Below, piece by piece: positions 7,161-63,576 of a stretch of 64,000 bases of DNA. The position numbers and the translations under genes were made by a program. Within the stretch, counting starts at the first letter, position 1. The number at the start of each line of letters is the position of its first letter. The notes under the pieces were generated by a model. The model was not told where the DNA came from. It saw only the letters and a program-made list of their open reading frames with translations, and did not search any database. The DNA comes from a virus: IMG/VR virus record IMGVR_UViG_3300031251_000005, positions 1-64,000 of that record; one strand, given 5' to 3'.

Positions 7161-8501
7161 ATGAGAAGATTAGACTTAGGTTTAGAAGAAATTCAAGAAG
7201 TAATTGATTTTGGTGATGACAGTGAATTAACTGTATATGGAGAAAACGAATTCGAAAGTAGCGGTGCTACTGATGTTTTGGAATCTGCTATTGAAACTGC
7301 TTCTGAAGCAGCAGTTGGTTTGGAAGAAATTAAAGAAGCTTTGGAACTATCGTTGACCAATGGTGGATTGACTGAACAAGGTGCACTCTTTGCTAATATT
7401 GCTATTAAAAATACAGTAGCTGCTGGTTATGGCGTCGCTAAACCATTGCCATCAATGGAATCTATTAATAGTAATACTGGTCGTATGCAAATTACTGGTT
7501 TTGCTTTAGAGACTGTTAATAAAGAAGCAGAAGGTATTTTTGCGCGTATTAAAGCCTTTATTCAAAAATGGATTCAAAAAGTAGTAGAATTTTGGAATAA
7601 ATATATTAGTAATGTAGGCCGATTAGTTTTTAGTGCAAAAAAATTAGCAACCAAAGCCCGTGAACATAAAGGTGTGGTAAAAGAAAAAGAGATTGAACTA
7701 AGCGGCGCACTTTTAGAAAATTTACAAATTAATAGTGAAATTAATTTTTCAAAAATTATTGCTGGTATTAAAAGTTTAGAGACCACAGTAAACCCAAAAA
7801 ATTCAGAAACAATAGCTTTAATTCTTGAACAAACAGCAGAAAAACTAAGTAACTTTGATGTTTCTACCGTTGAAAAAGCTGAAGCACTGAAAACCATTTT
7901 AGATGGAGAAATATTTAGTTCAGATCACGAGATTGCTCAATGGAAATCCGGTGGTTGGACCGAATCTACTTATAAACAATTTTTATCTACCAACACGGTT
8001 ACATATTTAGTCACACCTAAACTCATTGGTGATAAGATCAATGTTGTTGAAATTAAAAATGATTTAAGTGGTCGTACTACTGGTATTAAAGTGGCATTAA
8101 AAGACATACCTGGGGTTGGAAGATTAATCAAAGCTCAAAAAGTTAAAGCTTTAACACCTGATGAAATTGAAACCGCAGCTAATGCCGTTGTCAGCATAGC
8201 AGGTCACATTGTATCATTTAAAAATGTTATTTCTGAAAGAGAAAAAATTGTTAATAACATTGTTAAGTCTGCTGAAAAACTTTCTTCTAAATTAGAAAAA
8301 ACTAACTTAGAAGCTTCTAAAACAGAAACATATGTTTTTCTGAAATTTTATTTATCTAGTATTCCAGCAATCGCTCAAGCTACTGTTGCACCAATTCTTG
8401 ATGCACAAAAAGTTGCAACTGGTTCTAGTAGAAGTTTGTATGATTATGCGGTATATTCTTACAAAAATCTAGGGGAAAAATCAACAGATAAAAAAGATTA
8501 A
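7161..8501 (+). CDS. Putative inner-head (packaged) protein with capsid-targeting N-terminus
   Basis: 446 residues. The first twelve, MRRLDLGLEEIQ, are identical to those of the protein at 12141 although the rest is unrelated. This resembles the short capsid-targeting peptides of T4 internal proteins. Residues 13-117 are acidic and contain PSME100|S and FALE117|T, matching the maturation-protease motif seen in the capsid protein and portal. An amphipathic helix with aromatic residues (about 125-150) follows. Codon use is unlike most neighbours (more CGT for Arg, more TTG/CTG for Leu) and resembles that of the capsid gene, suggesting an abundant product. It is a single-gene unit flanked by hairpins. 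Packaging and cleavage are inference. Confidence 0.65.
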   Translation: MRRLDLGLEEIQEVIDFGDDSELTVYGENEFESSGATDVLESAIETASEAAVGLEEIKEALELSLTNGGLTEQGALFANIAIKNTVAAGYGVAKPLPSMESINSNTGRMQITGFALETVNKEAEGIFARIKAFIQKWIQKVVEFWNKYISNVGRLVFSAKKLATKAREHKGVVKEKEIELSGALLENLQINSEINFSKIIAGIKSLETTVNPKNSETIALILEQTAEKLSNFDVSTVEKAEALKTILDGEIFSSDHEIAQWKSGGWTESTYKQFLSTNTVTYLVTPKLIGDKINVVEIKNDLSGRTTGIKVALKDIPGVGRLIKAQKVKALTPDEIETAANAVVSIAGHIVSFKNVISEREKIVNNIVKSAEKLSSKLEKTNLEASKTETYVFLKFYLSSIPAIAQATVAPILDAQKVATGSSRSLYDYAVYSYKNLGEKSTDKKD

Positions 8502-8527
8502 TTAACTATTAGTTGATTAGCTATATT

Positions 8528-8557
8528 AGGAGAGTAGGGGATATCCCCTACTCTCCT
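8528..8557 (+). terminator. Perfect 15-bp-arm terminator with T run
   Basis: A perfect palindrome with arms of AGGAGAGTAGGGGAT is followed directly by a T run. It closes the inner-head gene at 7161. Confidence 0.9.
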
Positions 8558-8588
8558 TTTTTATGCTGTTCTTTATTAATATGATCGA

Positions 8589-8598
8589 TAATCGTATA
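8589..8598 (+). promoter_or_regulatory. Candidate late promoter element TAATCGTATA
   Basis: The decamer TAATCGTATA lies about 32 bp upstream of the structural gene at 8631. The same decamer occurs at 13367, about 26 bp before another structural gene and likewise just after a terminator. Two sites are too few to prove a promoter. Confidence 0.35.
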
Positions 8599-8630
8599 GT
8601 AACCAAGAACATCTACTGAGGTAATAATAT

Positions 8631-10130
8631 ATGCCTAAATTAGTAATACCAGTAGCAGATACAGATAGTACTATTAGTAGACTAGTTGTTAAATCTGTTA
8701 TTGAACAACTTTTATATTCTACAGAGATAGAATATATTAAAGATATAGTTTATCATCAACGTGGTGATATCAATGCTACTTCACAATTATATAACAGCAA
8801 TGAAACTTTGAGATTGGAAGTGAATGATTTAATAGAAGTAGATTATAAGAGTACTCAAGATGAAGATACCTTCGATTTTACTAAGTATCAGTTTGAATAT
8901 CCACCTATATTTATAGCTAAAGAGTTAGGTATTAATATTCATCCAATGCATGCTAAAGAACAATTAACTATTAATTTCACATATAGATCTAAAAGTTACG
9001 ATAAATTAACTACTTGGTTAAACAGCTTTAGACGTAAAATTAATATATCCTCACCTAGTGCTTTTCATGATATACAATATAACTATAGTATACCATCTGA
9101 CTTATCTGCTTATTTACATCAGGTATATACATTACAAGAGACAGTAGCTCCATATGGAATTACATTAAGAGATTTCTTATTACAGAATTTTGCCAATAGT
9201 GGATTAGTAACTAGACGCAATCAAAGTGATACTAAACAAACCTTAGCTATGAATGTTAAGAATACTGGTTGTTTAGGTATGTTTACCGTATTACCTGAGA
9301 TACAAGAAACTGGACATGAACCACCTCTATCTATGGTTACTTTTACTTATGTTATTAGATATGATAGAGTAACCTCTTTATTATTGGAATATCAAAAGTA
9401 TATTCATAATCAAGTGATAGATTTACAGTTTATTAATAAATACCATGATCGTAGATATCATAATAACCCACATTCTGGTATCACTACTTTTTCTCAATCA
9501 GTTAATAAAGCCACAGCAAATCAATATGGTTTATTAGATTATCCAGACAATGGAGTATATACTGGAGATGGTTGGTATCCTAAGTTAAACTTTGAACATG
9601 TTAAATCTAGTCAGATTATCCCTATCCAAATGGATTTAACTAACTTAAGATCAGTTTTAGATTTAAATCTATTATCTACTGTAGGTTTTCCTCAGTGGTT
9701 ACTTACATTAATGGGTAGATTTTATTCTCATTTATGTACACCATATAAATGGCCTTATTTATTTGAAGTCTTTGAAGTAAATTCAAAAGATACATTATTA
9801 CCAGTTTTTGTAGATAGTAATTTTCATCTAGTATCTGAGATAGATATGAACCCTAGAAATAGGTATTATATTAGAATTACATTATTTACTTTTTTATTTA
9901 ATGTAGACTTTACTGATTTATATACTGAACCAGCTACTCTATTACAATTATTACAATATATAAATCCTAAAGTTACCCTAGATATAATAGGGAATGGTAG
10001 TTATGCTACTCCACAGAGTGTATTTAAAGCTCTAAATCTTATAAATAATAGTGACTCAATATTAATGGGGTTACCTACACAAATGTTTTCAAATTTAATT
10101 GTTAGGAGAATGACTGATGCCACTGTATAA
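8631..10130 (+). CDS. Virion structural protein of unknown function
   Basis: A 499-residue protein rich in Tyr, Asn, Thr and Leu with no signal peptide, membrane segment or enzyme motif. It starts an operon of structural-type genes after a terminator and a candidate late promoter. Its 3' end overlaps the next gene by 14 bp, so the two products are probably made in a fixed ratio. The beta-rich character and aromatic content suit a tail or baseplate protein; the family is not recognised. Confidence 0.65.
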   Translation: MPKLVIPVADTDSTISRLVVKSVIEQLLYSTEIEYIKDIVYHQRGDINATSQLYNSNETLRLEVNDLIEVDYKSTQDEDTFDFTKYQFEYPPIFIAKELGINIHPMHAKEQLTINFTYRSKSYDKLTTWLNSFRRKINISSPSAFHDIQYNYSIPSDLSAYLHQVYTLQETVAPYGITLRDFLLQNFANSGLVTRRNQSDTKQTLAMNVKNTGCLGMFTVLPEIQETGHEPPLSMVTFTYVIRYDRVTSLLLEYQKYIHNQVIDLQFINKYHDRRYHNNPHSGITTFSQSVNKATANQYGLLDYPDNGVYTGDGWYPKLNFEHVKSSQIIPIQMDLTNLRSVLDLNLLSTVGFPQWLLTLMGRFYSHLCTPYKWPYLFEVFEVNSKDTLLPVFVDSNFHLVSEIDMNPRNRYYIRITLFTFLFNVDFTDLYTEPATLLQLLQYINPKVTLDIIGNGSYATPQSVFKALNLINNSDSILMGLPTQMFSNLIVRRMTDATV

Positions 10131-11343
10131 TGATGAGCAAGTAGTACCACCTATTACTCCAGGGGCACCTACTGATACAATGCCCGTATATATAGATACA
10201 GCTAGTAATTATTCTAACTTACAATATAAAGATAACATAATAGCATATTTAGATGGTACTCCATGGCAAGTTACTTATTATGCTCAATATCTAGGTGAGG
10301 ATGATGTAGTAGTTAATAGTAATGACATAGATGATCCTACCTTAAGACAATATCTAAAAATTAATCAGTTTGAATTAAGGGTAACATCAGCTTTATCTAA
10401 TACTTTTAATATAGCTACCAATACTAATATAATAATAGGTGAATCAAATGTATATCCAGTAATTACACCTACTGTGGGTGATGTATTTATTGGTATGATA
10501 CAGGATGGAGCGTTTGGTATCTTTGAAGTAACTAGTATTACTAGATACTCTATGTTTAAACAGTCTGCATGGGCTATTAGTTATTCTCAAATAAATTTTA
10601 GTACTCCAGATAGAGTAGCGGTATATGATAGTTATGTGGTTAATGAATTAACATTTGATGTTTCTAAACTAGACTCTGGTAGTAACCCTTTATTCACTAC
10701 ATCTGAATATTATCAACTGAATCAAAAACAAGATATAATATTAAATCTGGTAGAACAATACTTTATTGATTACTTTGATTATGTGACTAATACTTTTATA
10801 GTACCTAATGATGGTAGTTATACTGGAAAGTTATATGATCCATTTATTGTAGAGTTTTGGAATAAATTTATTGATAGAGATTTATACCCTAAATATAAAT
10901 CCCCTACTGCTTATAATATAAAAAACAATATAAGTAACTCACCATTTATTACTATTTTTGATATATTGGAGCAACAATCTATTACACAATTAAAGAACTG
11001 TGTTAAATATATGTCAAATACTCCCGTAGGTGAGTTTAATGCAACATTTCAAAGACACACAGTGGTAGTTAGCCATATTGACTATGTAGTGTATCCTGAT
11101 GATTCTGATGTGGATTTAGATAATACTGATATACCTTCACTTTATTTATTTAGTAATAACTTTTATAATAATGTAACTGGATCACAAACATCTTTAGAGT
11201 TACAAGTTATTAAAGCTATTTCAAAACAAGTAATTGCTTTTAGTGATATTCAGCCTTTATTAACTAGTTTAGATTCAGCTACTCCTGTAAATAAATTTTA
11301 TCAAACCCCAATTATAATAGCTTTATTATTATTAGCTAGGTAA
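10117..11343 (+). CDS. Virion structural protein of unknown function
   Basis: 408 residues starting at an ATG inside the end of the previous gene, with an AGGAG ribosome site (10103-10107). The N-terminal 200 residues are beta-rich and Pro/Thr/Asn-rich (residues 10-25 are a Pro-rich arm); the C-terminal half is more helical. No catalytic motif is visible. The next gene begins 3 bp after its stop. Assigned as structural by composition and operon only. Confidence 0.65.
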   Translation: MPLYNDEQVVPPITPGAPTDTMPVYIDTASNYSNLQYKDNIIAYLDGTPWQVTYYAQYLGEDDVVVNSNDIDDPTLRQYLKINQFELRVTSALSNTFNIATNTNIIIGESNVYPVITPTVGDVFIGMIQDGAFGIFEVTSITRYSMFKQSAWAISYSQINFSTPDRVAVYDSYVVNELTFDVSKLDSGSNPLFTTSEYYQLNQKQDIILNLVEQYFIDYFDYVTNTFIVPNDGSYTGKLYDPFIVEFWNKFIDRDLYPKYKSPTAYNIKNNISNSPFITIFDILEQQSITQLKNCVKYMSNTPVGEFNATFQRHTVVVSHIDYVVYPDDSDVDLDNTDIPSLYLFSNNFYNNVTGSQTSLELQVIKAISKQVIAFSDIQPLLTSLDSATPVNKFYQTPIIIALLLLAR

Positions 11344-11346
11344 GTT

Positions 11347-12048
11347 ATGTATAATTATAAAGAAGAATTAGTAGATCTTGTAAATATTCTATTTAGTAAG
11401 CCAATGGTAATAGAATCTACAAAAGTTAGTTTATCTTTATTAAATAAGGATATAGAAATTAAAGACTTATTTAAAGTGCCAGAAATGACTTCAGGCTCTT
11501 TTAAAACAATCAATGGAGTTACTATATCTGAAACTAATAGTAATATAGATGGATTAAAAGAACTATTAAGTGGCACTTCTAGAAATAGTCTAGGTGGTGA
11601 GTTCTATGAGAAATTTAATATAACATCTATTGAAACTGCTAGTTTACCCATTTCTGAAATAGCTCTATTGATATATAGAAAAGGTTCTGTTACTTTAGTA
11701 AATGTAGATGACTCTGTTTTTATTCACAAAACAGTTGGTAGATACTTAACTCTAGTAGAACAAAGAAAGTTATATGAATTACATTATCAAGCTCCACCAG
11801 AAGAAGATATATTAGCATTTCAAACTTTATATGACTTAATAACTGATATGGCTAGTTCTAGAGTTAGACAGGGTGAAGGCGGATCATTATTGTCTGAGTT
11901 AATTAGATTATCCTCAACTACAGCTAGTGGTGATATGTTTAAAAACGATAAAGTAGTTTTAAATGGTAAAAGAAGAACTGCATTACTAACTGAGAATAAT
12001 GAACCTAGATTATCTGGTTTGGAGAATGTAAAAGCTTTTAAAAAATAA
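11347..12048 (+). CDS. Hypothetical protein in the structural operon
   Basis: A 233-residue alpha/beta protein with an ATG 3 bp downstream of the preceding stop, consistent with translational coupling. It has a basic C-terminus (KNDKVVLNGKRRTALL near residues 198-213). No family, signal peptide or membrane segment is recognised. It is the last gene of the 8631-12048 operon; about 90 bp of AT-rich sequence separates it from the inner-head-type gene at 12141. Confidence 0.55.
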   Translation: MYNYKEELVDLVNILFSKPMVIESTKVSLSLLNKDIEIKDLFKVPEMTSGSFKTINGVTISETNSNIDGLKELLSGTSRNSLGGEFYEKFNITSIETASLPISEIALLIYRKGSVTLVNVDDSVFIHKTVGRYLTLVEQRKLYELHYQAPPEEDILAFQTLYDLITDMASSRVRQGEGGSLLSELIRLSSTTASGDMFKNDKVVLNGKRRTALLTENNEPRLSGLENVKAFKK

Positions 12049-12140
12049 AAGGGTTTATTAATTTCACTTTAATTTAGAATAAAAGAAAATGTAAAAATTG
12101 AAACATTAAAATGTATGATTGATAATAATTGGGAATTTAG

Positions 12141-13310
12141 ATGAGAAGATTAGATTTAGGTTTAGAAGAAATTCAAGATAATGTAGAAATTAGTATAGAA
12201 GAAATCTTTGATGAGATTGAAACTACTTGTTTAAAAAACTTAGGTTTATTAGAACAAGAGAATTATTCCATGGAAGGTTTGTTTGATAAACTAAAAGACT
12301 TTAAAGGAAAATTAATTGATCTCAAAGATTCAATAGATAAAAATATTAAAGAAAATAATATAATGACTAATAATAATTTAGATGTACTTGAAAAACATCT
12401 AATAAGCTTATTAGAAGAGATAGATTTATCTAAAAAACCAAAACTAGATAAAATAGAAATCCCAGGTAGAGCGCATGATTATTTAGAATTTGATAATTCT
12501 TATGATAACTATCTAGCTGGATTAAAACACACAAGTAATTTGATGTGTGATATAAATGCTATTACACCTGAACATTTTATTTTTAAAACAAGAATTCCAA
12601 AAGTAATAGAGTTATTAAATAAAAATAAATTAACAGAAGAAGGTTTATTAACTACATTTCAAGAGTTACATAAATCTAAAATATTTAATATAGATAGTCT
12701 TATGGATGAATATATTAAAACTACTAGTTTACCTTTAGAAAAAGTACTAGATAGAAGTAAATATAAATGGATGGAACAAAATAATGGGCAGAGATATGCT
12801 ATATCTAAGCACATTTATCCATTTGAGGAAATGGTTGTAATCCTGTTTACCCCAATTAATAATGAGAAAGTAACTACTGATACAACTTTTTGTGTTGGAG
12901 CTGGGGTATACTATTATTATCCTCATAAAAAAAGTAGACTTAAAAATGTAGAAGTAAAAGCTTTATCAGCTGCAGAATGTAAAATAGTACTAACTGAATG
13001 TATAACAGCTATTAATAAAGTAGATAGTTATTTTAAAATTCAAAAGCGTGCTGAAGAAGATAGAAATATTGATAATAGGTTAGCAATAGATTTATTAGAT
13101 GACATAACAACTATAATGAGAAACAATGATAAATTAAAAAAAGAAACAAAAGATGAAATATATATTCTTGGATATCTTTTATATCAATATGGTTATCAAG
13201 AAAATTCATCCTTTAAAGTTAATATAAATTATGAAATGCTGCATATAACGATACTCACAATTAAAGCTGCATATGTTTTAGCTAGTAAAAGTATACACAA
13301 TTTAAAGTGA
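12141..13310 (+). CDS. Second putative inner-head protein with capsid-targeting N-terminus
   Basis: 389 residues starting MRRLDLGLEEIQ, identical over twelve residues to the protein at 7161 and nearly identical at DNA level over those 36 bp, with no clear similarity afterwards. An acidic stretch follows, then NYSME45|G, a close match to the maturation-protease motif, then a charged helical region. The predicted mature protein would be 344 residues. Unlike the 7161 gene it uses the ordinary AT-rich codons of the phage. It is bounded downstream by a strong hairpin. It may be an ejected head protein; the mature part gives no recognisable fold. Confidence 0.6.
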   Translation: MRRLDLGLEEIQDNVEISIEEIFDEIETTCLKNLGLLEQENYSMEGLFDKLKDFKGKLIDLKDSIDKNIKENNIMTNNNLDVLEKHLISLLEEIDLSKKPKLDKIEIPGRAHDYLEFDNSYDNYLAGLKHTSNLMCDINAITPEHFIFKTRIPKVIELLNKNKLTEEGLLTTFQELHKSKIFNIDSLMDEYIKTTSLPLEKVLDRSKYKWMEQNNGQRYAISKHIYPFEEMVVILFTPINNEKVTTDTTFCVGAGVYYYYPHKKSRLKNVEVKALSAAECKIVLTECITAINKVDSYFKIQKRAEEDRNIDNRLAIDLLDDITTIMRNNDKLKKETKDEIYILGYLLYQYGYQENSSFKVNINYEMLHITILTIKAAYVLASKSIHNLK

Positions 13311-21184: not shown

Positions 21185-23350
21185 ATGCGAAATCGTAAAC
21201 AAATTGGGCGTCATAGCACTCCTGCTGCAATTTATCAAAATGCTGTATCTAAAGTAGAAACAATTATTGCCACTAATGGCACCAAATACACAAGTAAAGA
21301 TTTGGCTGATTCTTTTATTGGTTTAGAAAGTATCAGTGATGATAGATTCCTATCCGTTGCTAGAACCCAAGAAGAATTAGTACAAGAATTGCGTGATAGC
21401 GATTTTACTAATTTATTTCCAGATAACATTTCTCCTGAAAAACTATCTTTGGGCTTAGAAGCAGCAGCGTATACTCTATTAGTAGGCGCAAGTCCTGCTG
21501 AATATTTTAAACGTGCAGCTGAAGGTGCTAATACTTTCTCTGGCACAGCTGGTGTTGTTATGACTCCAGCAGATGGTGGTCACTCTGCATTTGGTTTGGA
21601 ATCTTTTGAAGCTGGCTCTATTCAAAAATATCTGGCACAAACTGCTGTTGCAAATGCACAAGCAGCAGTACTAGGTGGTTTTGAAGATGTATGGTTTCCA
21701 CAACAATTAGTACCTGCTGGTCAAAATGGTGTAGATATTCTGGTAACTATTCCACAAGTATTTACTACTACTACTCACACTGAAACTACCGGTGCACCAT
21801 ATACTATTATTAAACAATCACTGATCTCTGCAGTTATTGATCCTAGTATCTTGGAAAGCAATGCAACTACTATTGTTCCTTGGGCTCAAGGTACTGATAG
21901 TACATCTGATCCACATTTGGTTCCAGCTGCACAAGTACCTACAACTACAGCTACTGTTGGTGGTTTGACTGTTAATACTCGTCCTATTGTCTTTGGTAGT
22001 AAAACCAGTTTGATTGGTATCTCCAATGCTACTAACCTGCTTAATGTTGGTATCTTTGATGAAACGGATGCACTTGATCCAATTATTAACATTGGCACTG
22101 TTTATTATAAACTAACAGTAACTACTGGTGCTAATACTCAGTCTCCTGTTACCAATTATGTATATCTGGCAACTGATGTTAGTAATCAAGCTGGTACCTT
22201 GCTGACTCAAGTACAAGCAGGTCGTATTCAAGCGCTGCAAACTACTGCTACAGTTAGTTTGCCTATTAACCATAGTATCGTCCCAGTTAATGGTTCAGCT
22301 GCTCCTTTGATTACCGCTTTGGAAGGTATTCTTGGTATTGGTGCTGGTGTTGCATTTACTATTGTTGCTACTGTTGATTTGTCTGCTACTGCCGATACCG
22401 AATATGGTAATATGACAGTTAATGCAAACTCACCAGTAATTGCTAAACTGTATGATGCTACAAACACAGCTGCTCCTTTGACACCATTTTCTGCTACTGG
22501 TGTTTCTGTTACTATTACTCCATTAGGTTTTACTCCATTGGCTCGTCGTACTAATAGCAACCTACGTCAAAATGGTACCATCATTGATAGCAACACAACT
22601 ATTACTTATCGTTACCCAGTAAACTTGCAAGCTCCTATTATCTCACAATCTCCAATCGGTGGTGCTACTAACACTACTCTGGAAGGTTTGGGTCATGCTA
22701 GTCGTATTCGTCAAAATGGTCGTGCGGTAACTGCATTGGCTAATGCTGAATCTTCATTGGCTACATATTCAGGTATTTCTGGTTCTTCACCATTTGTTGG
22801 TTCCTTGTTTGTAACTCCTACCTATGTAGCACATGGTGTAGATGTTTCAACTCTGGTAACTACAATGAACTCACAAGAAAACTTGATTAACTTGCGTGGT
22901 GCTTTAGTTTCTGCTATTACCAACACAGTTAATGAGTTGTTGATTAAATCTGGTTATCCAGCAGCTCTTGAGTTGACTAATGGTGATCCTGATGCATTTG
23001 AAATCATTGTTGCTACAGATCAAGAGATTGCTCCACATATCTGGGAGTCTGGTGATATTCGTACATTTGGTGATGCACGTAATTATAAAATTACTAAATC
23101 TAACAATAAATTCTTTAAAGGTAAAGTTTATATTTCCTTTAGAAGAACTACTCGTTCAGATGAAATTCATCCTTTGGACTTTGGCCGTATGTTGGTAACT
23201 CCACCATTGACTTATGATGTTGCTATTAATCGTAATGGTCGTACTACCAATGAGATTCATACCATTCCACGTGTGAATGCATATGTTACTCTACCAATTT
23301 TGGGTGTACTATCTATTACTAATCTTGAATCTATTTATATTAGTTCTTAA
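21185..23350 (+). CDS. Major capsid protein precursor
   Basis: 721 residues, similar in length to phiKZ-type capsid proteins. The N-terminal 139 residues form a charged, helical prodomain ending SAFGLE139|S, a strong match to the presumed maturation-protease motif; the weaker sites IGLE48|S and LGLE92|A lie within it. The mature part (582 residues) begins with an Ala-rich arm and FEDVWFPQQLVP and is beta-rich, Gly/Thr/Val-rich, fitting an HK97-type shell protein. Codon use is distinct (CGT for nearly all Arg, TTG/CTG for Leu), as expected for a very abundant product. AAGGAT precedes the ATG and a strong terminator follows. Identity rests on size, codon bias and prodomain logic. Confidence 0.75.
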   Translation: MRNRKQIGRHSTPAAIYQNAVSKVETIIATNGTKYTSKDLADSFIGLESISDDRFLSVARTQEELVQELRDSDFTNLFPDNISPEKLSLGLEAAAYTLLVGASPAEYFKRAAEGANTFSGTAGVVMTPADGGHSAFGLESFEAGSIQKYLAQTAVANAQAAVLGGFEDVWFPQQLVPAGQNGVDILVTIPQVFTTTTHTETTGAPYTIIKQSLISAVIDPSILESNATTIVPWAQGTDSTSDPHLVPAAQVPTTTATVGGLTVNTRPIVFGSKTSLIGISNATNLLNVGIFDETDALDPIINIGTVYYKLTVTTGANTQSPVTNYVYLATDVSNQAGTLLTQVQAGRIQALQTTATVSLPINHSIVPVNGSAAPLITALEGILGIGAGVAFTIVATVDLSATADTEYGNMTVNANSPVIAKLYDATNTAAPLTPFSATGVSVTITPLGFTPLARRTNSNLRQNGTIIDSNTTITYRYPVNLQAPIISQSPIGGATNTTLEGLGHASRIRQNGRAVTALANAESSLATYSGISGSSPFVGSLFVTPTYVAHGVDVSTLVTTMNSQENLINLRGALVSAITNTVNELLIKSGYPAALELTNGDPDAFEIIVATDQEIAPHIWESGDIRTFGDARNYKITKSNNKFFKGKVYISFRRTTRSDEIHPLDFGRMLVTPPLTYDVAINRNGRTTNEIHTIPRVNAYVTLPILGVLSITNLESIYISS

Positions 23351-23394: not shown

Positions 23395-23409
23395 TTACCC
23401 CTATTTTTT

Positions 23410-23504
23410 AAAGATTCTAATTTTTTGAAGATATATATTATTGTTGTAGTATTAGAATAGTATTGCATTATTCTAATCTTTTTAAATTAAATAGGAGTAA
23501 GAAC
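23410..23504 (+). promoter_or_regulatory. 95-bp cassette leader, copy 1
   Basis: Contains AAAGATTCTAAT, the promoter-like GAAGATATATATTATT, a hairpin with arms ATTAGAATA (23451-23459) and TATTCTAAT (23469-23477), a conserved CTTTTTAAATTAAA spacer and the ribosome site ATAGGAGT, ending at the ATG. Three other 95-bp copies precede genes at 24514, 36748 and 62833. The leader keeps an open frame into the gene from a TTG, but the ribosome site lies inside it, so this is an untranslated leader. Confidence 0.85.
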
Positions 23505-24356
23505 ATGAAGAAAGAAGTAAATCCAAACGTATTCAATGAAATCTTGTCAGTGTTAACTAAAAACGGCCATCTGTTTCCACAGATTGGATCACGGTACTTT
23601 GGGTATGATCATGAGCTCTCGGATTACGATTTTATGACTACCCATAATGAGATGAAAAGTGGTCTAGTCACCACTTTTACTAGTATTAAAAATTTAAGTG
23701 GGGGTGCAGAGTATTCTAGTGATCAGTCCCTTCAGGGGACTCTGTATGAAATCATTGATACCGACGGACGCAAGATTCAAATATTAGCCTTCGACACGGA
23801 GGCGGATTGTCTTACCCAAATCCGTAGGAACAGGGAACTAAAGGGGTTCTTATTAAACAATGCAGATATACTACCTTATATAGCGCAGCAAAAAAGGAAG
23901 TATCATTCAGAGGAAAGTAACGGCAGTATATTTTTCAATGAAATGTTAGAATTTATAAAATTTGAACACATGGACAGATGGCAATTTACTGAATGGAGTG
24001 ATAGTTATCGCTCCATACAAGAGGCAAAAGGTAGAAAATGGGTGGCGAATATGATGCTACCTATATTTTCTATGGTTATGTCATCAGCATGTACTCCCAC
24101 TTTATTACCACCAAAGGTAAGAGTATTAACTATTAAGGCTGATGATTGTTTTGGTTTAGATGAGCAACTAATTATAAATGACCAACCATCCACAGTGGTT
24201 GGAGATGGGGTGTCTTATCAGTGGGTAAAAAACCACCACTTATTAGTAAAAGTATTTCAGAATGGTCAGCTTTCTGAAACATATCTATGTGATGTTGAAA
24301 ACAACCTCAAATATAAGTTAGCACCTGTCCAACCTACAGAGTTGATAGTTAGTTGA
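23505..24356 (+). CDS. Nucleotidyltransferase-fold protein, paralogue 1
   Basis: 283 residues. GSRYFGYDHELSDYDF (28-43) matches the nucleotidyltransferase superfamily signature GS...SDxD, with Asp40 and Asp42 as metal ligands; Asp97 in KIQILAFD is a candidate third ligand. An RRNRELKGFL helix follows, and the C-terminal 80 residues are a separate beta-rich domain. About 60% alike by eye to the next gene, with identical stretches such as GAEYSSDQSLQGTLYEI. GC content and codons (CGG, GGG, CTC) differ from the phage average. It stands alone behind a cassette leader and before a perfect terminator. Substrate unknown: tRNA, protein or nucleotide are all possible. Confidence 0.75.
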   Translation: MKKEVNPNVFNEILSVLTKNGHLFPQIGSRYFGYDHELSDYDFMTTHNEMKSGLVTTFTSIKNLSGGAEYSSDQSLQGTLYEIIDTDGRKIQILAFDTEADCLTQIRRNRELKGFLLNNADILPYIAQQKRKYHSEESNGSIFFNEMLEFIKFEHMDRWQFTEWSDSYRSIQEAKGRKWVANMMLPIFSMVMSSACTPTLLPPKVRVLTIKADDCFGLDEQLIINDQPSTVVGDGVSYQWVKNHHLLVKVFQNGQLSETYLCDVENNLKYKLAPVQPTELIVS

Positions 24357-24396: not shown

Positions 24397-24418
24397 TATT
24401 TATTATCTTTTATTTTTT

Positions 24419-24513
24419 AAAGATTTGAATTTTTTGAAGATATATATTATTGTTGTAGTATTAGAATAGTATTGCATTATTCTAATCTTTTTAAATTAAA
24501 TAGGAGTAAGAAC
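24419..24513 (+). promoter_or_regulatory. 95-bp cassette leader, copy 2
   Basis: Nearly identical to copy 1 (AAAGATTTGAAT instead of AAAGATTCTAAT), including the ATATATTATT core, the ATTAGAATA hairpin and TAGGAGT. It drives the second nucleotidyltransferase-like gene. Confidence 0.85.
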
Positions 24514-25323
24514 ATGAAGAAAGAAGTAAATCCAACAGAGTTTAATGAAATATTGGCTGTGTTAACGAAACACTGCCACGTATATTTAGAGATTGGCTCA
24601 AGGTACTTTGGGTACAATCACGATCTGTCGGACTATGATTTCATGACTTCCCAGAATGGGATAAAATGTGGTTTAGTAACCACGTTTACGAGCATTAAAG
24701 ACTTGTCGGGGGGGGCAGAGTATTCTAGTGATCAGTCCCTTCAGGGGACTTTGTATGAAATTGTTGCCACCGATGGCAGAAAGATTCAAATCTTGGCATT
24801 TGATAGGGATGAAGACTTGCATACCCAAGTCCGTAGGAACCGAGAGTTAAAGGGGTTTCTCTTAAACAATGAGTTTCTCTTACCTTATATAGCTAATCAA
24901 AAAAGGATGTTTAATTCGGAAAAAGGAAATGGATCAATATTTTTCAACGAAATACTGGAGTGGATACAGTTAGAACCCATGGACGGATGGCAATTTACTG
25001 TATGGTGTAATAACTATTACTCCATACAAGAGGCAAAAGGTAGAAAATGGGTGACTCGAATGATGTTACCTATATTTTCTATGGCCTCTGCCCAATCATC
25101 TAAACCAAAGGTAAGAGTATCATCTATTGGTTTTGATGAGCGACTAATAATCAATGACCAACCAACCACTATCCATGGTTCTGGGGTAGCTTATCATTGG
25201 GTAAAAAACCATCTGCTAGTAAAAGTAATTCTGAATGAGCGTTCTAAAACCTTTCTAGTTGATATTGAAAACAATATCAAATTTGATGCAGATTTTCACC
25301 ACACAGAGTTGATAGTTGAATAA
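24514..25323 (+). CDS. Nucleotidyltransferase-fold protein, paralogue 2
   Basis: 269 residues, paralogous to the preceding gene along its whole length. It retains GSRYFGYNHDLSDYDF with the two metal-binding Asp residues and KIQILAFD, so it should be active if the fold call is right. Divergence is mostly in surface residues and in a shortened segment near residue 195, where the first copy has extra Ser/Ala/Thr/Pro. The leader, the terminator and the gene are all duplicated, and the preserved motif argues against decay. A specialised second substrate is possible. Confidence 0.75.
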   Translation: MKKEVNPTEFNEILAVLTKHCHVYLEIGSRYFGYNHDLSDYDFMTSQNGIKCGLVTTFTSIKDLSGGAEYSSDQSLQGTLYEIVATDGRKIQILAFDRDEDLHTQVRRNRELKGFLLNNEFLLPYIANQKRMFNSEKGNGSIFFNEILEWIQLEPMDGWQFTVWCNNYYSIQEAKGRKWVTRMMLPIFSMASAQSSKPKVRVSSIGFDERLIINDQPTTIHGSGVAYHWVKNHLLVKVILNERSKTFLVDIENNIKFDADFHHTELIVE

Positions 25324-34052: not shown

Positions 34053-36596
34053 ATGGCTAAAAAAGATGAAAATAAAAAACCAGTTGAAGATGATATCTCT
34101 ACCACTGAGAAAGTATGGAGAGTACCTAAGACTGATTTAGTAGCACCTACTAATAAAAAGAAATACACTAGCAATCTAGATATTGATTTTAGTAGATTAA
34201 AACGTATAGTACTAGACCACTCTGATAGACTGGATGATGCAGCTGGTATTATGGAAACTTTACCAGATCTAGAAATAGTCAAAGAGACTCTAGTAGCTAG
34301 CATATTATCACCCAAAGATTTAAAAGAAGTAAAACTAAATATAACAATTAATAAAAATGCTCCACCAGAAATAGCTGAATTAGTAAGAGATCACTTTACA
34401 TCAGAATTTAATCTAGAGAGTAAATTATCTGTAATATTAGAGGAGTCTCTTTTTACTAAAGGCAGTTATATTTTAATGACATTACCACCTAATGCTATTA
34501 GAAAGATTATTGTTGAAAATACATATGGATTAGAATCAGCTAAGTATAATATAACTAATTTAGATATTGATAACTTTAGCTTGCCTAATATTGGTTTATT
34601 ACATTCTAATCTAGATAATGTAAACTATAGTTTAGAAAGTATCACTGATGAACGTAATTCTAAATTCTCTTTAGAAGGCGTAAACTGTAGTTTTACTAAA
34701 GGTGAAGATTTTAATGAATATAAAAAGTATGTAGAAATTAGTGATAATTGTTTACATTTAATCAGACCTGCAATTAAATCTTATAGTGGTAAGAAAAAAG
34801 TAAGTGATATATTAAAGAATGCTTTTGGTATGGAAGCAGTTCAAAATACTGTTAATGTTGAATCTATTTATTTAAGTAGATCAGCTACTACTATTCCTTT
34901 GCTAACTATGTCAGAAGATGTAGAAAAAGAAACTGAATTTAATCCAGTGGTTTTAACATTACCACAAGAATCAGTTATTCCAGTGCATGTTCCAGGTGAG
35001 CCTACTAATCATGTTGGTTATTATGTCTTTTTAGATGAGGATGGTAATCCAATTAGATATACTAGTACTAGTAATAAATTTAAAGAATTAAACACTAGAT
35101 TAAATAATACTATTAAAAATCAAACTTTAATGAATAATATTGGCTTAGGTGTAACCTATGCTAATAATTCAGTATCTAAAAACGCTAATGCTATTAATAA
35201 TAGACTTTTATTAGAGGCTTATTATAAAAAGTTTGAAAATGATTTAAAAGAAAAGATAGCTAAAGGTGGAACTGGGCAAACTGTAGAAATCAGTAACCCT
35301 GGTGAATTATATAGAATTATGTTTGCTAGGCAACTAGAAAAACAAAAAACTAAAGTTATCTATGTTCCTAAAGAAATGATTAGTTATATAGCGTTTAATT
35401 ACAATGAAACCGGCACTGGTATCTCATTGATTGAAAAGACTAAATTAATATCTTCTTTTAGGGCTGTATTAATGTTTGCTACTTTAATGGCTCATGTTAA
35501 AAGTTCAGTAAATCTAAGAACTCTTAGTATTACTTTAGATCAAGATGATCCAGATCCAACAGCTACGGTAGAATCTATATTAAATGAAACAGTAGCCTTA
35601 AGTGCATCTGGTATGCCTTTAGGTAGAACAAATCCATTAGATATAGTAGACTCGTTACAAAAGTCTGGATTACAGATTAAAGTAGATGGTGGTACCAGAT
35701 ACCCTAATACTAACATTGATTTAGCAGAAACTAAAAGAAACATTACTCCCCCTTCTTTAGATTTATCTGATATGTTAAGAGATATGCATTATTCAGCTCT
35801 ATGGGTAAATCCTGAAACTATTACTAGATCTGCAGATATTGATTTTGCTTCTACTCTTACATCAATAAATTTATTACAAGCTAAACGTATTACTGAAGTG
35901 CAAACTAAATACACAGCAGCTCTAAGCGGTGTAATAAAGAACTATATCTATATGGGTGGACCTTTATACACTACAATTAAAGAAAAATATAATTCTGCTA
36001 AAAGCTCTTTAACTTTAGAAGAAGTAATTGACAGTATAGCTGTTACATTACCTAAACAAGACAATGCAGTTATTTTAACACAAGCTAAAGAATATGCAGA
36101 TTATTGTACATTTATAGAAACCGCTGTGGACTCTTATATATCAGATGGTATGATTAAAGATTTATTAACTGGTGAATATATTGGTTTAAGCATAGATGAT
36201 GTTAGAAATACTATTTTAGATAAATTAAAACGTGATTGGTTACGTGGTCAAAATATGTTACCTGAATTAGATACTATTATTATTAATGAAGATAATAATG
36301 CTACTAAAAATTTAGAATTACATAATGACAATGTAATTAAATTCATCAGCGAAATCTTAAGGCACGTTAAAAAAACTGAACATGATGAAGATGAAAAAAC
36401 TAAAGAAGAAATAGATAAGTTAAATCCTCCACCACCTGAAGAAGAAACTACAGATGTAGATAACCCATCTCCAAAAGAAGGTGAGGAAAATACAGATATA
36501 TCTGAAGATAACAATGAAAATGATCTAGATAAAGACTTAGATAATCCTGATGAGTCAGATAAACCAAAGGATGATGATAAGGATACCAAAAAGTAA
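34053..36596 (+). CDS. Portal protein (probable) with internal protease sites
   Basis: 847 residues. A charged N-terminus, a middle region with the KVIYVPKEMISYIAFNYNE strand-helix typical of large portal proteins, long helices after residue 590 and a highly acidic, Pro-rich tail (about 785-847). Four close matches to the head-protease motif cluster between residues 157 and 262: YGLE161|S, YSLE195|S, FSLE208|G and FGME261|A. The segment between the first and last is Asn/Ser-rich and looks like an insertion. Length matches giant-phage portals. Alternative: another large head protein. AAAGAGA precedes the ATG. Confidence 0.6.
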   Translation: MAKKDENKKPVEDDISTTEKVWRVPKTDLVAPTNKKKYTSNLDIDFSRLKRIVLDHSDRLDDAAGIMETLPDLEIVKETLVASILSPKDLKEVKLNITINKNAPPEIAELVRDHFTSEFNLESKLSVILEESLFTKGSYILMTLPPNAIRKIIVENTYGLESAKYNITNLDIDNFSLPNIGLLHSNLDNVNYSLESITDERNSKFSLEGVNCSFTKGEDFNEYKKYVEISDNCLHLIRPAIKSYSGKKKVSDILKNAFGMEAVQNTVNVESIYLSRSATTIPLLTMSEDVEKETEFNPVVLTLPQESVIPVHVPGEPTNHVGYYVFLDEDGNPIRYTSTSNKFKELNTRLNNTIKNQTLMNNIGLGVTYANNSVSKNANAINNRLLLEAYYKKFENDLKEKIAKGGTGQTVEISNPGELYRIMFARQLEKQKTKVIYVPKEMISYIAFNYNETGTGISLIEKTKLISSFRAVLMFATLMAHVKSSVNLRTLSITLDQDDPDPTATVESILNETVALSASGMPLGRTNPLDIVDSLQKSGLQIKVDGGTRYPNTNIDLAETKRNITPPSLDLSDMLRDMHYSALWVNPETITRSADIDFASTLTSINLLQAKRITEVQTKYTAALSGVIKNYIYMGGPLYTTIKEKYNSAKSSLTLEEVIDSIAVTLPKQDNAVILTQAKEYADYCTFIETAVDSYISDGMIKDLLTGEYIGLSIDDVRNTILDKLKRDWLRGQNMLPELDTIIINEDNNATKNLELHNDNVIKFISEILRHVKKTEHDEDEKTKEEIDKLNPPPPEEETTDVDNPSPKEGEENTDISEDNNENDLDKDLDNPDESDKPKDDDKDTKK

Positions 36597-36640: not shown

Positions 36641-36652
36641 GACCTATTTTTT

Positions 36653-36747
36653 AAAGATTCTAATTTTTTGAATATATATATAATAGAAATGGTATTAGAA
36701 TAGTATTGCATTATTCTAATCTTTTTAAATTAAATAGGAGTATTAAA
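36653..36747 (+). promoter_or_regulatory. 95-bp cassette leader, copy 3
   Basis: Same length and layout as the other copies: AAAGATTCTAAT, GAATATATATATAATA core, ATTAGAATA hairpin, TAGGAGT. Together with copy 4 it forms a subtype with AGAAATGGT after the core, where copies 1 and 2 have GTTGTAGT. Confidence 0.85.
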
Positions 36748-62722: not shown

Positions 62723-62737
62723 ATTACCCATATTTTT

Positions 62738-62832
62738 AAAGATTAGAATTATTTGAATATATATATAATAGAAATGGTATTAGAATAGTATTGCATTATT
62801 CTAATCTTTTTAAATTAAATAGGAGTAAGAAC
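62738..62832 (+). promoter_or_regulatory. 95-bp cassette leader, copy 4
   Basis: AAAGATTAGAAT, GAATATATATATAATA core, ATTAGAATA hairpin and TAGGAGT, ending at the ATG of the Cys-rich gene. Here the first 12 bp are an inverted copy of the later ATTCTAATCTTT, so a longer alternative stem is possible. Confidence 0.85.
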
Positions 62833-63576
62833 ATGAATTGGTTTACAAAAGCTTTTGTTAGCACACTTTCAATAGAAAGCAAAGCTAAAAAATGTTCACA
62901 GATGGATTGCTGTGAACACGTTGAGGCTGATAACTCACTGTTGTCGGTAATTAGCCGTGAGAATGACTCGTTCGGCAGTGAGGCATATGGCATGTGTGAT
63001 GCATGCAATGAATGGAGTATGGAAGAAGAAGGCAAGGAAGAAGTAGTCTGCCATGACTGCAAAGAAACAAAGGAAAAGAAGGACACATATGAATGGAAGT
63101 GGTATGATTTTTATGCACCACAAGGAGATGAACCTCTATGTATTTGCGATGCCTGTCGTAAATTACCTAAGCATATTGCTCGGGTAAAAAAGGATAGACA
63201 GGAAAGGGATGAAGAGTTGTATGGGAACCAAGACTGTGATAGTGATCAGGATGACTACTATAGCTATTATTTAACTGGTGAGGAGAAACAGGAATTGGGT
63301 AATAATTCCACTGTTTTGGAATTGCAAGAGGCAGATGTAGAGTTTTACACTTTCAGGATGAAAGAACTTGTAAGTAAATTCGAAAAAGACTTTATCCCAA
63401 AAGAAAATAGTCTTCCAGAATATGTCGAACTCTATAATCTTGTATTGGAATGGTTGTCACAACAGGTCCATCCATACTGGAAGTTAGGTGAATTTGAAGC
63501 CGTTTTCAGTAGATTTCCAAAGGCATGGTTGGCTGATATGGCGCCACTAATCACTGGTAAAACAAAACCATTTTAA
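62833..63576 (+). CDS. Cassette cargo protein with Cys-rich zinc-binding region
   Basis: 247 residues from the leader-adjacent ATG. Cys clusters CSQMDCC (about 21-27), CDAC and CHDC (54-76), and CICDAC (about 102-107), with interspersed His, look like two or three zinc ribbons. An acidic region (DQDDYYSYY) and a helical C-terminal domain (about 160-240) follow. GC content is above the local average. The N-terminal LSIESKAKKC resembles LALEGKAFAKKC of the cargo protein at 36748. It could bind nucleic acid or a host protein; no family recognised. Confidence 0.65.
   Translation: MNWFTKAFVSTLSIESKAKKCSQMDCCEHVEADNSLLSVISRENDSFGSEAYGMCDACNEWSMEEEGKEEVVCHDCKETKEKKDTYEWKWYDFYAPQGDEPLCICDACRKLPKHIARVKKDRQERDEELYGNQDCDSDQDDYYSYYLTGEEKQELGNNSTVLELQEADVEFYTFRMKELVSKFEKDFIPKENSLPEYVELYNLVLEWLSQQVHPYWKLGEFEAVFSRFPKAWLADMAPLITGKTKPF

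Follow-up and report, generated by a model that had tools for sequence, protein, structure and literature searches.

The closest described counterpart of the locus analysed here is found in Salmonella phage SPN3US, where gp53 and gp54 are identical over their first 15 residues, a feature that has been likened to the targeting sequences of T4 (PMC5694885). Targeting through the propeptide has been suggested in the SPN3US papers, where its role is described as unsettled; giant phages load tens of megadaltons of ejected protein into their heads. The specificity of the prohead protease is S/A/G-x-E in phiKZ and A-x-E in SPN3US. Cleavage at E125 of gp53 and at E124 and E137 of gp54 has been mapped by mass spectrometry, and gp53 may also be cleaved at ARE-12, inside the shared N-terminus (PMC10052503). 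In phiKZ, gp93 is cut at SLE-13. Some head proteins of SPN3US are packaged uncut, and the coupling between tag and cleavage is thus not strict.

The window, a stretch of 64,000 nucleotides from the IMG/VR record IMGVR_UViG_3300031251_000005, belongs to an 87,976 bp contig representing part of the genome of a phiKZ-like giant phage, with a phiKZ-type capsid protein, a portal, a DnaB-like helicase and the corresponding order of head genes. This conserved gene order is common to the contig and the Vibrio phages BONAISHI and sm033, and the major capsid protein is 30–34% identical to those of the closest Vibrio giant phages. Its predicted maturation site is FGLE-139/S (the slash marks the predicted cut), in which E139 is invariant in a three-way alignment. 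The portal-like protein contains the protease-type sites GLE-161, SLE-195, SLE-208 and GME-261. A prohead protease of the gp175 type is absent from the 88 kb fragment, and protease specificity was therefore inferred from relatives; in BONAISHI the protease gene and the genes of the internal head proteins are ~75 kb apart. The features of the locus are collected in Table 1.

Table 1. Positions in the window of the shared peptide, the two proteins that carry it, their protease-type sites and the surrounding head genes.
Feature	Position	Strand	Evidence or remark
IP1, internal head protein, 446 aa	7161..8501	+	Pfam PF12699 phiKZ_IP, PHROG 2497, Foldseek
IP1 codons 1–12 (MRRLDLGLEEIQ), proposed capsid-targeting peptide	7161..7196	+	Identical in ORF 12141
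IP1 GLE-9, protease-type site	7185–7187	+	Fits S/A/G-x-E
IP1 acidic propeptide, residues 10–117, net −16	7188..7511	+	
IP1 site SME-100	codon 7458–7460	+	Aligns with SPN3US gp54 E124
IP1 site ALE-117 (FALE117/T)	codon 7509–7511	+	Aligns with SPN3US gp53 E125, gp54 E137
Conserved gene upstream of P2, 233 aa, in head-gene region	11347..12048	+	Homologues adjoin 13403 homologue
P2, orphan accessory protein, 389 aa	12141..13310	+	No family, no phage homologue
P2 codons 1–12 (MRRLDLGLEEIQ)	12141..12176	+	37/38 bases as in 7161–7198, one silent change
P2 GLE-9, protease-type site	12165–12167	+	Inside shared peptide
P2 acidic stretch, residues 10–45, net −10, ending at YSME-45/GLFDKLKDF	12168..12275	+	
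Conserved gene downstream of P2, 447 aa	13403..14746	+	PHROG 3245, phiKZ gp101 homologue
Major capsid protein, phiKZ-like	21185..23350	+	tblastn to giant-phage capsid proteins, PHROG 3231
Portal-like virion structural protein	34053..36596	+	PHROG 3004

Elsewhere on the contig, a near-identical element of ~105 bp recurs at window positions 23403–23504, 24412–24513, 36646–36747 and 62731–62832, with a fifth, partial copy at contig position 64313. It lies upstream of five genes, ends with an AGGAG ribosome site and an ATG, and is a repeated promoter/5′ leader that probably belongs to one early regulon. Tandem nucleotidyltransferase-like paralogues (IGSRYFGYDHELSDYDF; window 23505–24356 and 24514–25323) have one leader copy each. 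The MHYSNLFKLNRS 'N-termini' of four ORFs were considered as a protein tag and rejected, being a DNA repeat read through TTG. On the minus strand, a 725 aa protein (contig 81979–84156; L003:2980–5157) contains a mid-sequence cluster of protease-type sites, SSVME/GISSGME/GISVAAEE/GLAG, the sequence of which suggests an internally processed virion protein.

The initial annotation stated that the proteins starting at 7161 (IP1) and 12141 (P2) share their first 12 residues exactly. This is the case: both are started by ATG and read MRRLDLGLEEIQ over residues 1–12, and at the DNA level 37 of 38 bases are equal, the sole mismatch being a silent GAC/GAT change in codon 5. The match starts at the first base of the ATG and ends two bases into codon 13; 5′ of the start codons the two DNAs are unrelated. 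As a stop codon is found 0 or 8 codons upstream of these ATGs with no start in between, they are the first usable starts of both genes. The exact onset at the ATG together with the silent difference indicates that what is shared is a protein end and not an upstream DNA element. Identity of the 11 non-Met residues has a chance probability of ~8e-14 per pair, and chance is therefore rejected as the source of the sharing. Ten of the 11 codons are identical compared with 6.1 expected from codon bias (p ~0.013), so that the first codons may have been copied fairly recently.

Beyond this segment nothing obvious had been seen to be shared, and we come to the same result. BLASTP aligns only the first 13 residues of IP1 and P2, identity is 92–100% over these 13 residues and then falls to noise, and the segments after residue 20 are no more similar than noise. 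Across all plausible starts of the contig no third protein with MRRLDLGLEEIQ is present; the next-best start scores 22 against 53 and is a TTG inside the IP1 gene. The search for other proteins starting with MRRLDLGLEE that had been proposed yields IP1 and P2 only in the 87,976 bp contig fragment, and no such start is found in IMG/VR contigs with an exact degenerate pattern. While the dodecapeptide as such stands, the initial annotation overlooked a third protease-type site within it, GLE-9, which resembles the candidate site of the major capsid protein. Judged from its sequence, the tag is probably MRRLDLGLE, ending at GLE-9 and cut apart from the rest of the propeptide.

IP1 matches PF12699 over residues 37–405 with E=1.4e-19 and 71 bits (curated cut-off 27) and belongs to PHROG 2497, internal head protein. 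An AlphaFold model made with nine relatives is of moderate quality (pLDDT 54) and, compared with BFVD using Foldseek, matches internal head proteins of giant phages. The gene occupies the position on the contig where relatives carry their internal head proteins, and close relatives of IP1 were not found in viral contigs. Virion presence and ejection are known for relatives of IP1, and we propose that IP1 is the resident inner-body/ejection protein.

P2 presents a different picture. It has no family in Pfam or NCBIfam, with no match to PF12699 at E≤10, nothing better than E=0.006 in PHROG, no significant match to PDB sequences and no phage homologue in viral contigs or phage records. Once the dodecapeptide is removed, its match to internal-head-protein profiles is marginal at best and not significant. 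Its relation to the internal head protein alignment, evaluated by profile comparison and with our own profiles, is weak, and P2 was therefore kept out of PF12699. The AlphaFold model from its single sequence (pLDDT 38) is unreliable. Identification of P2 as the homologue of phiKZ gp153/SPN3US gp214 was rejected, as that gene is located at contig 68529–69395 on the minus strand (L002:5530–6396; E 5e-10 in the second profile round), where it has an early SLE site, MKLDTILDSNINIHGVDFSLE/DGSF. The two genes flanking P2 are adjacent in five relatives (L005–L009), with a gap of −1 to 13 bp, and are separated by 1,354 bp here. P2 fills this gap and is therefore an accessory gene inside the head-gene block. 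It is probably accessory cargo that gained its tag, probably via duplication of the first codons, and would likely travel into the host with the DNA.

Acidic stretches ending at head-protease-type sites after residues 117 and 45 had been described for IP1 and P2, respectively, and both the stretches and the sites (FALE117/T and YSME45/G) are borne out. When ten internal head proteins are aligned, the mapped residues E125 of SPN3US gp53 and E137 of gp54 fall on E117 of IP1, and E124 of gp54 falls on E100; both IP1 residues are nearly invariant. Because P2 is not alignable to internal head proteins, we used a junction matrix covering 18 residues around the maturation Glu, derived from 11 relatives and including no sequence of the contig. 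P2 E45 (ENYSME/GLFDKLKDFKGK) ranks first among the 1,180 Glu residues scored on the contig (16.4 bits), followed by IP1 E117 (6.7 bits). The score of P2 is reached by nine of 28,351 Glu residues in six giant phage genomes, eight of which are in internal head proteins, and by 3 of 20,000 shuffles of P2 13–130. Positions 117 and 45 thus have independent support, and both E117 of IP1 and E45 of P2 are predicted maturation junctions of the internal-head-protein type, located before an amphipathic helix.

Next, the N-termini were compared across the family using a rule of three elements: a net positive start, an [SAG]-x-E motif ending within residues 8–22 and net acidity of the next 35 residues. 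The rule selects 21 of 47 internal head proteins compared with 13 of 906 other ORFs (p=1e-21). Leaving out phiKZ and SPN3US, it selects 16 of 37 internal head proteins (p=4e-17), a hold-out that is only partly independent because the rule was written after viewing several of these phages. Since only around half of these proteins fit, the tag is either degenerate or not the only route. Among the 13 other ORFs selected are gp153 of phiKZ and gp96 of Noxifer, the latter with a virion structural annotation. On the contig, the rule selects IP1, P2 and ORF 62833 only. The last of these (window 62833–63576) is a Cys-rich protein of PHROG 8344 that starts with MNWFTKAFVSTLSIE/S and sits 3′ of the repeated leader element. 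No prior account of a quantified family-wide signature was found in the literature searched, two earlier phiKZ papers lying outside it.

Within individual phages the N-termini of internal head proteins are related: MNLNKLLDSLE, MTFKLNEYLDSLE and MMVNIHKYVASLE in phiKZ, MSVTKRVLGR and MSITRRVLGT in PCH45, and VERVSLEE and IERVSQEE in Noxifer. In the propeptides of paralogues, similarity is usually highest in the N-terminal segment, and the N-terminal 10-mers of paralogues mostly exceed the 95–99% level of random protein pairs; this similarity is weak in FLC9 and EaH1. PCH45 ORF 874 (MSITKRILG) matches the N-termini of the internal head proteins of that phage and lacks an early protease site. 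In Noxifer (NC_041994), the unannotated gp210, gp218 and gp219 have similar starts (MDIDNWLGEN, MDINNYLDEN and MSENIQKFLDEN; loci 268018–269894 and 273203–274129, L188). Maturation sites are predicted for gp210 and gp218, and all three are candidate packaged cargo like P2.

We interpret MRRLDLGLEEIQ as a T4-like capsid-targeting peptide carried by a resident internal protein and by an accessory cargo protein, with a probability of roughly 0.73. T4-type targeting had already been put forward in the initial annotation. It agrees with all points that the sequence can address (the PF12699 assignment of IP1, the junctions and the recurrent N-termini), with the amendment that the tag probably ends at GLE-9. 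By analogy with T4 (PMC9026906) and SPN3US (PMC5694885), the free N-termini of IP1 and P2 would bind the prohead core during head assembly, such that both proteins become enclosed. A prohead protease of the phiKZ gp175/SPN3US gp245 type would remove the tag by cleavage behind GLE-9 and would also trim the acidic propeptides, at SME-100 and ALE-117 in IP1 and at SME-45 in P2. Mature proteins of ~329 (IP1) and ~344 (P2) residues would be left in the head, stay with the DNA and leave the head with it.

An alternative is that IP1 and P2 are highly diverged internal-head-protein paralogues in which the N-terminus is the best conserved part, while the head-targeting element resides in the propeptide or the mature domain. 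The maturation junction of P2 is in agreement with this, as are a VKAL(S/T)xxE stretch present in both proteins and the low-confidence model of P2, in which a helix, strands and helices follow in a similar order. However, without the 12 residues the real score is reached by 489 of 954, 380 of 858 and 31 of 939 shuffles, and an abrupt fall from near-identity to noise is not ordinary divergence. P2 is furthermore located elsewhere and is missing from relatives, and we consider common descent of the two proteins unlikely. Even under common descent, an N-terminus kept selectively would suggest that this end has a function.

The peptide might instead recruit a chaperonin or an assembly factor and not the prohead core, in the way that the N-terminus of T4 gp23 recruits GroEL (cited in PMC10052503). 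That peptide belongs to a capsid protein, whereas the present one is found on internal proteins and, like the targeting peptides of T4, ends in an early protease-type site, which makes such a role very improbable. Finally, the 36–38 bp could be shared as nucleic acid, either as a translation-start/mRNA element or as a recent gene-conversion patch, with no meaning for the protein. The excess of identical codons would fit, but the boundary at the ATG, the unrelated upstream DNA and the silent change do not, and other giant phages show the same pattern at the protein level, encoded by different DNA. The real DNA repeat of this phage is also different and sits upstream of genes, and a nucleic acid element can hardly be credited.

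Returning to a capsid-targeting peptide, the presence of one dodecapeptide on a resident protein and on an accessory protein unrelated to it sets the tag apart from the remainder of the protein, and the family-wide signature makes the targeting idea testable. We tentatively suggest, with the odds somewhat against it, that phiKZ-like giant phages each use a modular capsid-targeting peptide in a dialect of their own, which unrelated accessory genes acquire by copying the first codons. If true, searching for the peptide of the resident internal head protein at the starts of other genes would find injected accessory cargo; P2 would be such cargo and Noxifer gp210, gp218 and gp219 possibly more. 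New here are an N-terminal peptide shared exactly by an internal head protein and an accessory protein with no relation to it, and the quantified signature.

Compared with SPN3US gp53/gp54 (MANFVKSKLARESVE; PMC5694885, PMC10052503), the likeness comprises a phiKZ-like giant phage, PF12699, an acidic propeptide, a protease-type site (ARE-12) inside the shared residues and maturation sites that align with IP1 E117. In contrast to gp53 and gp54, which are recognisable paralogues (34% identity), P2 is an orphan with no detectable relation to IP1, and it has a shorter propeptide (45 residues) and an accessory position. In phiKZ, an N-terminal peptide containing an SLE site is likewise present in gp97 (NIHKYVASLE), which belongs to PF12699, and in the head protein gp153 (NIHKYAKSISLE), which does not, and gp153 is processed at SQE-52, akin to the predicted SME-45 of P2. 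The phiKZ peptides are similar but not identical, and gp153 is a conserved core gene with its own homologue on the contig, which P2 is not. T4 provides the general scheme, in which an N-terminal peptide of ~10 residues is found on the different internal proteins IPI, IPII, IPIII and Alt (PMC9026906, PMC7411985), those of IPII and IPIII being identical; its x-x-E end is cut by the prohead protease and the proteins that carry it are ejected. A short peptide (~10–20 aa) on distinct internal proteins is likewise found here, with P2 presumed to be internal. It has no sequence relation to the T4 peptides, is followed by an extra acidic propeptide and is predicted, by analogy, to serve the same targeting.
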